A DNA stretch of 64,000 bases from Dyella sp. EPa41 (GTDB taxonomy: Bacteria; Pseudomonadota; Gammaproteobacteria; Xanthomonadales; Rhodanobacteraceae). Position numbers and translations under genes: made by a program. Where the stretch lies: the NCBI RefSeq assembly GCF_016586165.1, contig NZ_BCPR01000001.1, forward strand, positions 1-64,000, read 5' to 3'. Shown here piece after piece: positions 16,066 through 52,369 of the stretch. The notes beneath the pieces are model-generated. The model saw only the letters and a program-made list of their open reading frames with translations. It did no database searches and was not told the origin of the DNA. The first letter of the stretch is position 1. Every line of letters starts with the position of its first letter.

Positions 16066-16148
16066 GCAGGAGCGCACCCAGTGCGCGATCGCGATCCCCG
16101 CAATGACCCCTCGCATTGCTGCGGTCGCGCACTGGGTGCGCTCCTGCT
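16066..16148. repeat. REP doublet between eda and a convergent gene
   Basis: A plus REP at 16066-16090 and an inverted REP at 16123-16148 could fold into one long hairpin. The pair fills the gap between the convergent stops of eda and the lysozyme-inhibitor-like gene, a usual place for REPs acting as mRNA 3' ends. Confidence 0.85.
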
Positions 16149-17294: not shown

Positions 17295-17318
17295 CGCGCA
17301 TCGCGTTCTTTTTCTTTT

Positions 17319-17929
17319 GTAGGAGCGCACCCAGTGCGCGACCGCGGACTGACAGGGTTGCCTCGATCTGCGGTGGTCGCGACGACGCAAGGGCAAGGTG
17401 CGTTGCGACGCGGCGGTCGCGCACTGGGTGCGCTCCTACAGAGATAGGAGAGGTTTTGGCGAGCACCCACCCCTCACCCCAGCCCTCTCCTCGCTCCTCA
17501 AAGCCGCGGCCATCCATGGCCGCTCCCCGCGTGCCCCGGAGGGGAGAGGGAGAACGGATGCGGCGCCTCATAGGGTTCATCACGGCTCAGCGAGGTTGCT
17601 TTAAGTCCTCTTCGCGTCGGCGCGTGGCGGTGTAGCCGCGTCGTTCGAGATAGTAACGAGCGCATCCCAGCTGGCCTCAGTCATCCGACGCTTCTATCCC
17701 ACATATCGCTATGAGCCCTGGCTCTGAAGGCCATTTTCTTTGGGTTACTTTTCTTTTGGGCCAGCAAAAGAAAAGTGACTCGGCGGCCGGCAGGACGTCG
17801 AAACGCCCGCTGCGTAGGCGGCATGCTCGCGGAAGCGGGGCTACCGGAGGCAATAGCCCGCTTTCACAAGAGCAACAAACGTGCAGCCCACCGTGAAAGG
17901 CTGTCGCGCACAGGGTGCGCTCCTACAGG
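17319..17929 (+). repeat. REP-bounded composite repeat, copy 1
   Basis: About 610 bp without a gene, starting with a plus REP (17319-17342) followed by an inverted REP (17416-17440) and ending in an inverted REP (17905-17929). In between are a C-rich block with the palindrome GGCCATCCATGGCC, then a segment whose hairpin pairs ACTTTTCTTTTG with CAAAAGAAAAGT (17749-17778), then a conserved stretch up to the last REP. Near-identical blocks recur at 32460-33090 and, inverted, at 59652-60157. Short ORFs in it are considered artefacts. Its right end overlaps the stop codon of the SURF1 gene. Confidence 0.85.
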
Positions 17930-32459: not shown

Positions 32460-33090
32460 TGTGGGAGCGCACCCTGTGCGCGACCGCGGACTGACGTGGT
32501 TGCCTCGATTCGCGATCGTCGCGACTGGAAGGTAAAGGAGCATCGCCACGTTGCGGTCGCGCACTGGGTGCGCTCCTACAGAGATAGGAGAGGTTTTGGC
32601 GAGCACCCACCCCTCACCCCAGCCCTCTCCTCGCTCCTCAAAGCCGCGGCCATCCATGGCCGCTCCCTGCGTGCCCCGGAGGGGAGAGCGGGAAAGAATG
32701 AGGCGCCCATAAAGTCCATCGCGGCTCAGCGAAGTGGCTTTAAGTCCTCTTCGCATCGGCGCGTTGCGGTGTGGCGGCTCCGTTCGAGGTAGTAACGAGC
32801 ACGCCACGGCTAACCTCGGTCGGCCGACGCTCCTATCCTGCATATCGCCATGAGCCTTGGCTCTGAAGGCCATTTTCTTTGGGTTACTTTTCTTTTGGGC
32901 CAGCAAAAGAAAAGTGACTCGGCGGTCCCACGGGACTAGCTTCGCGTCGCCGGCAGGACGTCGAAACGCCCGCTGCGTAAGCGGCACCCTGGCGGTAGCG
33001 GGGCTACCGAAGGCAATGGCCCGCTCTCATAAGAGCAATAAACGTGCAGACCACCGCGAAAGGCTGTCGCGCACAGGGTGCGCTCCTACA
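32460..33090 (+). repeat. REP-bounded composite repeat, copy 2
   Basis: Same order as copy 1: plus REP (32460-32485), inverted REP (32556-32580), C-rich block with GGCCATCCATGGCC (32600-32690, almost identical to 17460-17551), the ACTTTTCTTTTG hairpin (32887-32916), conserved tail and final inverted REP (33066-33090). It differs from copy 1 by an insertion of about 22 bp near 32926. No gene is supported. Confidence 0.85.
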
Positions 33091-35475: not shown

Positions 35476-35580
35476 TGTAGGAGCGCACCCAGTGCGCGAC
35501 CGCGAACCGTCAGGTCGCCACGTCCCGAACGCCGCACTGTCGTCCCGCAGGCCTATCGCGCACTGGGTGCGCTCCTACAG
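35476..35580. repeat. REP doublet
   Basis: A plus REP at 35476-35500 and an inverted REP at 35555-35580 flank a 54-bp spacer. The pair sits between the convergent stops of the NTF2-like gene and rpoD, just before the rpoD terminator. Confidence 0.9.
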
Positions 35581-50309: not shown

Positions 50310-51260
50310 TCAGGTGCCGCGGGTCTTGGTGGCGTTGAGGTAGTCGGCCGCCGTGATGCGCTTGCCGCCGGCGCGCTGCAGCGCCGTCACGCGCAGTGCG
50401 CCTTCGCCGCAGGCGATGTCGATGCCGTCGCGAGTCACGCTCAGCACGCTGCCGGGCGCGGCGCCGGGCTGCCCGTGGACGGCTCGCGCGGCCCAGATGC
50501 GTAGCATTTCACCCGCGACCTCGCCTTCGGCCACCGGCCACGGATCGAACGCGCGCACCTGGCGTTCCAGTTCAATCGCCGGCCGCGCGAAGTCCAGTCG
50601 CGCCTCGGCCTTGTCCAGCTTGTGGGCATACGTGACGCCCTCGTCGGGCTGCGCGCGCGATGCCAGCGTCTCGCCGGCGATCACCCGGGCGAGGCCTTCG
50701 GCGAGCACGTCCGCGCCGAGCGCCGCGAGGCGGTCGTGCAGCGAGCCGCCGGTGTCCTCACGGGTGATCGGCGTGCGGCGTTCCAGCAGTACCGGACCGG
50801 TGTCGAGGCCGGCCTCCATCTGCATCAGGTCGACGCCGCTCTCGGCATCGCCCGCGAGGATCGCGCGCTGGATCGGCGCCGCCCCACGCCAGCGCGGCAG
50901 CAGGCTGGCGTGAACGTTCCAGCAGCCCAGGCGCGGAATCGCCAGCACCTTGCGCGGCAGGATCAAGCCATAGGCCACCACGACCATGAGGTCCGGCGCG
51001 TAGGCGGCAAGCGTGGCCTGCGCGTCGGCGGACTTCAGCGATTGGGGCTGCTCGACCGGGATACCAGCCGCCTCGGCGGCCTGCTTCACCGGGCTCGGCG
51101 TCAGCTTGCGGCCGCGTCCCGCGGGGCGGTCGGGCTGGGTATACACGGCCACCACCTCGGCGCCGCTGGCGCGGCAGGCCTGGAGGCAGGGTACGGAAAA
51201 GTCGGGAGTGCCCGCGAAAACGACGCGGAGCTTAAGGCGACGCTGACCAAGTATCACCAT
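50310..51260 (-). CDS. fmt: Methionyl-tRNA formyltransferase
   Basis: Formylates initiator Met-tRNA using 10-formyl-tetrahydrofolate. It has 316 aa. [17 protein letters not shown] is the usual N-terminus, and the catalytic N-H-D set lies in [17 protein letters not shown] and GLDTGPVL. The first codons (MVILGQRRL) lie inside the left arm of a nested inverted-repeat element, so the start region may have been remodelled. The ATG at 51260 gives the family length; a GTG at 51257 is also in frame. def lies upstream across 262 bp. Confidence 0.94.
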
Positions 51261-51523
51261 CGTCACCCGTTCTGTCTGTTTGCAGGCCACAGGAACGACG
51301 GCGAAGGCAGACTGGCCGTCTGTCTAGACGGCGGGCCGAAGGCCTGCGGACAGACAGAACGGGCCCCAGCTGATTGAATTTCAAATGATGGGGTGATGCC
51401 TGGAAGGCCCGCGGGCTGCGCCGCGCGGCTTGGCAAGACGGCCAGTCTTCCCGGCGACACTCGGCGCAGCCCGCGGGCCTTCCAGGCATCATGACGATGG
51501 CGATACTTGGTCAGCGTCGCCTT
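51234..51523. repeat. Nested inverted-repeat element 1 between def and fmt
   Basis: The outer arms of 32 nt (51234-51265 and 51492-51523) are inverted copies with one mismatch. Inside, directly abutting the left arm, arm A pairs 51266-51288 with 51341-51363 (23 nt, two mismatches) and contains a 7-bp hairpin (51315-51332). Arm B pairs 51395-51422 with 51463-51490 (28 nt, perfect) and contains AAGAC-GTCTT at its tip. The whole folds as a four-way junction. The right arm starts at the last base of the def stop, and the left arm encodes the first codons of fmt. No ORF within it is supported. Confidence 0.85.
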
Positions 51524-52032
51524 CAAGCGCTGGCCGCCTGCTTGCGCTGCTTTTCCAGGCGCTTGAGCAGCATGGAGCGCTTGAGCGGCGAGAGGTAATC
51601 CACGAACACCTTGCCGGCGAGGTGGTCCATCTCGTGCTGGATGCACACGGCCAGCGGGCCTTCGAACTCGCGTTCGATGGTGTTGCCGTCCACGTCCTGC
51701 GCCTTGACCTTGACCTTGAGCGCCCGCGTCACGTCGGCATAGATGCCGGGAAACGACAGGCAGCCTTCCTGGTAGACCTGCGCGCCGTCCTTCTCGACGA
51801 TCTGCGCATTGATGAGCGCGAGCGGCTCGTTGCGCTCCTCGCTCATGTCGGCAACCAGCACCTGCTGGTGCACATTGACCTGGGTGGCGGCCAGTCCCAC
51901 GCCGTTGGCGTCGTACATGGTCTCGAACATGTCGGCCACGAACTGCTTGAGGTCCGCGTCGAAAACGCGCACGGGCTCGGCCTTGGTGCGCAGGCGGGGA
52001 TCGGGAAATTCGATGATGGTCAGGACGGACAT
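51523..52032 (-). CDS. def: Peptide deformylase
   Basis: A 169-aa metalloprotease that removes the formyl group from nascent proteins. The three signature motifs are present: GVGLAATQV (near residue 45), EGCLSFPG with the metal-binding cysteine, and [16 protein letters not shown] with both histidines and the catalytic glutamate. It is usually co-transcribed with fmt, but here a 290-bp structured element lies between them and starts at the def stop codon. A second such element lies 72 bp upstream of its start. Confidence 0.97.
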
Positions 52033-52103
52033 GGCTTTAACCTCAAGCGCTCAAACTGCGGGCGAATTGGTGAAAACCAAGCCCGGGCGCGATCTAGAAT
52101 GAC

Positions 52104-52369
52104 AGCGTTTGCTCAGCATCTGCACGTCACCCGCGTTGTGCTGGTAGGGCCGCTACGGGGCAGTGCGTGGCGAAGCGCCTGACTGGTGGTCAGGTCGAGC
52201 CGCGCGGTGTCCCGTAGCGGCCCTACCAGCACAACCCTTCGGGCCGGACTGTTTGCCCGCCTGACCGCGTCATCACTCGGTTGTGTATCGACATACACGC
52301 CCTCGTTCTTCCTTGTCATGCGGGCAAACAGTCTCGGCGCGGGTCACGTGCAGATGCTGAGCAAGCGCT
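52104..52369. repeat. Nested inverted-repeat element 2 upstream of def
   Basis: The outer arms of 32 nt (52104-52135 and 52338-52369) are inverted copies with two mismatches. Arm A pairs 52136-52159 with 52211-52234 (24 nt, perfect) and has a CCTGAC-GTCAGG tip. Arm B pairs 52247-52260 with 52320-52333 (14 nt, perfect) and has a GTGTAT-ATACAC tip. Arms and outer stem abut with almost no gaps. The architecture is the same as element 1, but the sequences differ. It fills most of the space between the divergent def and LysM genes; no ORF is supported. Confidence 0.85.

Follow-up and report, generated by a model that had tools for sequence, protein, structure and literature searches.

Two strongly folded repeat elements, element 1 and element 2, lie on either side of def in the 64,000-nucleotide stretch of DNA analysed here (the window), and we put at about 75% the reading that they are non-autonomous MITEs, of IS5 type for the family of element 2 (F2) and probably also for that of element 1 (F1), with a fold that is probably needed for, or restored during, movement, and with a placement around def that is coincidental. 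The structure is striking and real, and it is of a known kind, that of inserted MITEs, with an unusually structured, modular interior.

Both of the folded elements that the first-pass annotation had picked out are present, and their fold goes far beyond that of shuffled controls. The outer arms lie at 51234-51265/51492-51523 in element 1 (97% complementary) and at 52104-52135/52338-52369 in element 2 (94% complementary), and each pair encloses two inner hairpins (51266-51363 and 51394-51491 in element 1; 52135-52235 and about 52243-52337 in element 2). As single-stranded DNA, element 1 has a predicted folding energy of -136 kcal/mol against a shuffle mean of -58.8 (z -19.1), and element 2 one of -115.8 kcal/mol against a shuffle mean of -54.6 (z -16.6), with none of 200 shuffles being as good in either case. 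When the whole 64-kb window was scanned for inverted repeats (seed 10, maximum distance 450), the other pairs above the score limit were one REP-like repeat found in several places and one 17-nt hairpin; no Rfam family matched within the window at its gathering score. The elements measure 266-290 bp, occur in dispersed copies and have no transposase gene; despite overlapping open frames, they are judged non-coding by reading. The arm length of 32 nt proposed in the annotation is correct for both elements, but the arms extend into target-site copies, and on our reading element 1 proper spans 51236-51521. The features are as follows.

51232-51235, no strand: target-site copy to the left of element 1, TTAA (from comparing empty and filled sites in 19 congeners; most relatives have TTCA at the empty site).
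51236-51521, no strand: element 1, F1-type MITE, 286 bp between target copies (repeat copies and net 290-bp gain relative to congeners).
51236-51265, plus: left terminal inverted repeat of element 1; its minus strand contains ATG 51260-51258, from which fmt may now start.
51266-51363, minus: hairpin A of element 1 (R1 model, 41 bits on the minus strand; the Y profile alone is not above shuffles).
51364-51393, no strand: short linker hairpin of element 1, about CCCC..GGGG (fold).
51394-51491, minus: hairpin B of element 1, related to F2 hairpin X on the minus strand (profile, 18.2 bits).
51492-51521, minus: right terminal inverted repeat of element 1 (arm pairing, repeat copies).
51522-51525, no strand: right target-site copy TTCA of element 1, containing the def stop codon (51523-51525, minus) (congener comparison).
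52104-52369, no strand: element 2, F2-type MITE, with its own target duplication no longer readable (arms, fold, copies, empty sites).
52104-52135, plus: left outer arm of element 2, divergent with respect to the family form AGAGCCTGTTCAATG (comparison with F2 copies).
52135-52235, plus: hairpin X of element 2, with a variable yet paired stem and a conserved tip with CTGACTGG..GTCAGG (F2 alignments).
52235-52243, plus: linker hairpin CCCTTCGGG of element 2 (F2 copies).
52243-52337, plus: hairpin Y of element 2, with a strongly conserved loop region at 52267-52315 (GCGTCATCACTCGG..GTATCGACATAC..GTTCTTCCTTG) (F2 alignments).
52338-52369, minus: right terminal arm of element 2 (arm pairing).

The gene between the elements is def (51523-52032, minus strand), with fmt downstream of it in the same orientation (the gene names at this locus were assigned by reading translations). 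At the fmt-def-lysM locus, both elements are absent in all 19 congeners. The spacing between anchors in fmt and def is 44 nt in 17 of these genomes and 53 nt in the other two, versus 334 nt in the window; the 290 bp gained with element 1 are interpreted as 286 bp plus a 4-bp duplication (TTAA on the left, TTCA on the right), this 4-bp reading being based on other F1 copies with flanking TTAA. The def-lysM spacer, with element 2, measures 456 nt between anchors, versus 190-193 nt in all 19 congeners. Because of this double absence, the window elements are lineage-specific insertions, and they look recent. On our reading, the TGA stop of def overlaps the TTG start of fmt in most relatives, and over window positions 51228-51290 the two genes are set apart by element 1. 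The fmt frame in the window runs back into element 1, an arm of which offers an ATG (51260-51258), and this ATG may be the new fmt start. Among 20 elements of the same genome compared with three relatives, 18 have an empty orthologous site in at least one relative, and five have a filled one. At one F1 site (L003), a short remnant occurs in one relative and filled copies, recognised from their flanks, in two others (L350, L356). The remnant (L219, G005:C4:340900-342300) leaves about 83 nt between the flank anchors, with the ends retained and the interior mostly gone.

Similar elements recur both in the genome itself, with F1 at eight distinct places and F2 at 23, and in related soil bacteria. 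R1, a covariance model of the second hairpin of F2 built from 16 sequences, gives 29 matches in the genome itself (the 23 F2 places, four reverse-strand echoes of F2, and two F1 hairpins) and has matches in 29 of 61 genomes, this one included, with up to 28 matches each. The distribution is patchy even within the genus, with no R1 match in two of 20 genus genomes. A pattern scan of named genomes yielded 60 loci, 59 of which carry Lysobacterales titles (the genera Dyella, Rhodanobacter, Frateuria, Luteimonas, Lysobacter and Pseudoxanthomonas, or MAGs whose names stop at the family or order level); the remaining locus is titled only Proteobacteria. Plasmids gave no match for element 1 or element 2, and viral contigs gave 0 matches for one pattern. 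After de-duplication, 135 F2 sites span, on crude gene calls, all gene arrangements, with two inside frames and 16 undetermined. The 41-bit match of R1 to element 1 is weak evidence for kinship between F1 and F2, since R1 also gives 30-38 bits to four F2 reverse strands. Several copies (L036, L032, L009, L059) carry an extra palindrome, GGCGCCATCCATGGCGCC or the like, nested between or beside their hairpins, which is perhaps another repeat inserted into some copies.

Terminal inverted repeats are present in both F1 and F2 elements, and recent copies duplicate their target. One genome of the genus (G018) harbors ten closely similar F2 copies, nine of which, on our reading, show an exact TNA duplication. 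Both ends could be recognised in 115 F2 copies overall, of which 27 have identical flanking 3-mers, versus 16 in a mismatched control; such a weak family-wide signal is what we assume to be expected if most copies are old or if targets are mixed (TA/TNA). For F1, 20 loci were fetched, one of which (L358) has a single end; TTAA stands on both sides in nine of the 19 two-ended copies, corresponding to seven sites (two pairs share a site). These TTAA-flanked copies have the ends GGCAACAC..GTGTTGCC or a near form, and one of them is a 129-nt short form. Several insertions in the genome itself appear, on our reading, to have lost 1-6 bp of target. Insertion without duplication, which was the first reading of the empty sites, was overturned by the TNA and TTAA found at recent copies. 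The target rules of IS5 subgroups include TNA and YTAR. As regards REP/REPIN sequences, described in the part of the source consulted as 20-40 bp palindromes tagged with GTAG or CGTC (PMC3733652), the elements differ in their ends (GAGCCTG or GGCAACAC) and in their size (266-290 bp).

Candidate helpers for F2 came from a PF01609 search of eight genomes, which led to insertion sequences with ends beginning like those of F2: AGAGCCTGTTCAAAATCTT in G018, GGGCCTGTTAACACTA as the left end in G021, and TAGAGCCTGTCGTCATG as the left end in G035, the right end differing by one base in the latter two. In G035, both ends are common to 13 of the 14 loci compared. F2 arms carry the same kinds of ends as these insertion sequences, over a short match of about 8-13 bp. 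All six transposase pieces from the three genomes have NF033580 (IS5) as their best NCBIfam family, and four of the six pass its whole-protein cut-off. Within the genus, PF01609 matches occur in five of 20 genomes and NF033580 matches of any score in four, and the NF033580 cut-off is passed only in G018, the genome with the F2 burst. Its insertion sequence copy with both ends is broken by two stops; the genome that contains the window has no PF01609 or NF033580 match, and the two profiles revealed no intact helper in the 20 genus genomes. A long copy with F2 ends was searched for in the genome itself with one 15-base pattern, and none was found; likewise, when 41 genomes were scanned with one 20-base pattern, with up to three mismatches, no two F1 ends were spaced as in a transposon. 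The G035 genome also contains many near-identical IS5 copies (L325-L338), together with 12 F2-type model matches.

F2 is, therefore, filed as an IS5-type MITE on the basis of its ends and targets, and F1 as a MITE whose IS5 type is probable, an assignment based on the TTAA target and on the hairpin X that it has in common with F2. The annotation had named a match to a known IS/MITE family as an outcome that would refute it; such a match was found for the most part for the family of element 2, and in part for that of element 1. It had also suggested that the folded shape is what matters. The outer arms carry IS-like ends and recent copies duplicate their target, which speaks against shape alone as the explanation of the arms, and outer-arm covariation can arise because both ends are bound by the same transposase. 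This calls for caution: covariation among dispersed repeats, even when strong, is not by itself a sign of a conserved cellular RNA.

The idea that a shape is retained while stem sequence is free is borne out. In 12 full F2 copies, 65 of 99 pairs show double-sided compensatory change. In a set of 32 F2 copies, hand-picked from 65 new full-length copies and scored against the structure obtained for the first 61, 97.8% of the cells are paired and 66 of 97 pairs are double-changed; none of 500 shuffles scored as high, although related sequences may exceed such shuffles without any structure. Sliding the alignment by 1-3 columns lowers the pairing to 35-41%. Double-changed pairs make up 23 of 29 in the outer stem and 29 of 35 in the X stem, and the loops are strongly conserved while the stems vary in compensatory ways, the Y loop region being 49 nt long. 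Within the otherwise near-perfect and freely varying F2 outer stem, column 25 (52128 versus 52345; C.C in element 2) is a common A.C mismatch, found in 25 of 59 elements.

The sequences of the two elements had been said not to match, and this is true by eye, but hairpin 51394-51491 of element 1 (minus strand) matches the profile of the first F2 hairpin at 18.2 bits. With the ends excluded, 21 of 23 F1 elements reach 18.2-37.1 bits against this X profile (DNA) and one more reaches 6.3 bits, the best of 460 shuffles reaching 5.6 bits and the 129-nt F1 form (L357) having been left out beforehand. The elements can, therefore, no longer be called unrelated in sequence. Pairwise alignment of F1 with F2 gives mostly non-significant homology, and the Y profile in F1 elements is not above shuffles (4.4 versus 4.5). 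F1 and F2 thus have hairpin X (about 100 nt) in common, and not their ends. Short F2 forms of about 160-217 nt exist that, on our reading, are devoid of X, and X is, therefore, optional.

Copies standing at the same site in different species offer another view of the pairing. Nine such pairs, representing seven sites at 88-99% identity, display five compensatory versus 60 one-sided paired differences. At 96-98% identity, compensatory differences number 0 of 15 between same-site copies versus 9 of 140 between different-site copies, and at 93-95% identity, 2 of 20 versus 61 of 283. At 87-92% identity, they number 3 of 30 versus 715 of 1,491, in a class that comprises only two same-site pairs, one of them a decaying copy. 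It is only this last class that shows a clear contrast, with few sites at matched identity, and the pairs of different-site copies throughout lack independence. When one same-site pair (L059/L235) is aligned with gaps, three changes on one arm are matched on the other. On our reading, standing copies would decay and moving lineages would retain pairing.

Under the preferred MITE reading, an IS5-family transposase, present from time to time, would bind both F2 ends and move the element in trans, and F1 would use another, unseen transposase. This helper would come and go, as only G018 passes the NF033580 cut-off in the genus, as its two-ended copy is broken, and as the genome that contains the window has none. 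The interior fold would probably be required for, or restored during, movement, because the stems compensate between sites but change mostly one-sidedly at one site; the likelier reason would be a single-stranded interior (RNA or ssDNA) that aids spread or host toleration. The interior is modular rather than random filler, X being common to both families and Y being added in F2. A bolder proposal, which we hold to be rather unlikely, is that hairpin X is a selfish module captured by, or switching between, at least two end systems, the TTAA-type ends of F1 and the TNA-type ends of F2. Its single strand would be recognised in movement or would render insertions harmless, and spread would be confined to copies that fold correctly. 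If X does move between transposon systems, it would constitute a structured parasite of parasites.

The pairing could instead be maintained by a structured RNA, the interior being transcribed with its neighbours and acting as an RNase III or RNase E substrate, a stabiliser, or a shield against Rho polarity. Sporadic mismatches in hairpin X, read on the X-to-Y strand, favor G.T over A.C in two sets (72:21 and 70:20; by columns, 16:7 and 21:7), some columns being conserved as T.G, and this wobble bias hints at a single-stranded role, as RNA or ssDNA. The loops are strongly conserved, many copies lie tightly between co-directional genes, and effects on transcripts have precedents in Correia and ERIC, in the excerpts consulted (PMC10969869, PMC3049150). 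Nevertheless, the X excess is smaller when restricted to pairs found in the folds of both strands (45:19 and 68:20), where the excess by columns does not reach significance (11:7, p 0.48; 16:7, p 0.09), and G.T and A.C are even in the outer stem (31:30 and 23:29) and in hairpin Y (13:11 and 12:9). An early count over all stems of 18 F2 elements of the genome itself gave 13 G.T to 16 A.C. A first count of 20 A.C to 2 G.T in the other hairpin of F1 was discarded, a strand-neutral alignment of 16 elements giving 4 to 5. Sense-strand bias was dropped as evidence for RNA, as 31:13 in the first set became 11:13 in the second; among co-directional genes, both sets together hold 42 sense versus 26 antisense copies (p 0.07). 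As standing copies also change mostly one-sidedly, an RNA role is possible but, on balance, doubtful.

A mutational by-product, in which quasipalindrome template switching or arm-to-arm conversion keeps the arms alike and the fold has no role, would agree with an outer stem that is almost perfectly paired and strand-symmetric; one-step copying would produce double changes fast, and the three two-arm changes of L059/L235, as well as the five compensatory changes at standing sites, could be of this origin. The 60 one-sided changes at those sites make conversion at rest look weak, albeit with few sites at matched identity, and the conserved loops are left unexplained; the explanation thus has less than an even chance, even though a variant, with arm conversion acting during transposition, could be conceived. 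Movement as ssDNA by a fold-recognising Y1 enzyme (IS200/605 or RAYT), an integron or a similar enzyme would suit the large hairpins, the sequence-free stems and the A.C mismatch common at column 25 of the outer stem (25 of 59 elements), but recent copies are flanked by TNA or TTAA and the terminal repeats resemble those of DDE-type insertion sequences, which makes it very improbable. The least credible explanation is that of conserved shapes placed to serve def. The bracketing of def, to which the annotation drew attention, is true, and element 1 does part def from fmt, which overlap in most relatives; nevertheless, both elements are insertions without counterpart in the 19 congeners, and F2 sites occur in all gene arrangements. 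The position around def is probably a coincidence, and we give a service to this gene almost no weight.

Among known systems, BOX and CIR appear to be the closest to F1/F2 in design, by description and within the parts of the sources consulted. BOX (Streptococcus) is modular and strongly folded, with an optional internal module and ends said to resemble ISSpn2, and in S. suis other terminal modules (boxE/boxF) enclose the same boxB, according to the excerpt consulted (PMC3049150). Like BOX so described, F1/F2 are modular and folded, with terminal repeats and an optional module; unlike it, they place one internal hairpin under two end types with different targets (TTAA, TNA), and their stems covary around conserved loops. 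CIR (Caulobacter/Brucella) is presented, in the portion consulted, as an intergenic and only partly MITE-like repeat with two long hairpin arms and a linker (PMC2229807). F1/F2 share the two hairpin arms joined by a linker with this description, but are enclosed by terminal repeats, and their recent copies show target duplication. Small MITEs with transcripts that form long stems include Correia/NEMIS, ERIC, RUP and QMITE, the ends of RUP resembling IS630-Spn1 (PMC10969869, PMC2229807), and other bacterial repeats are described as having no arms or linkers, with one stem-loop formed from two ends (PMC2229807); these accounts were also seen in part. Unlike Correia/NEMIS, ERIC, RUP and QMITE as described there, F1/F2 have two inner hairpins of conserved design. 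With IS5-family insertion sequences (NF033580), F2 shares ends that match over the first 8-13 bp in G018, G021 and G035, but it has no transposase and, judged by reading, a different interior. A screen of open-licence papers, at search-result level, gave no account of the F1/F2 family.

F1/F2 copies constitute a natural data set that sets structure-preserving change against decay, and more same-site pairs would test selection for the fold during the spread of bacterial MITEs. The window also contains a second repeat system, in which TGTAGGAGCGCACCCAGTGCGCGA or a similar form occurs in REP/REPIN-like inverted pairs, at 22-389, 16066-16147, 17318-17440, 32460-32580 and 35476-35579.
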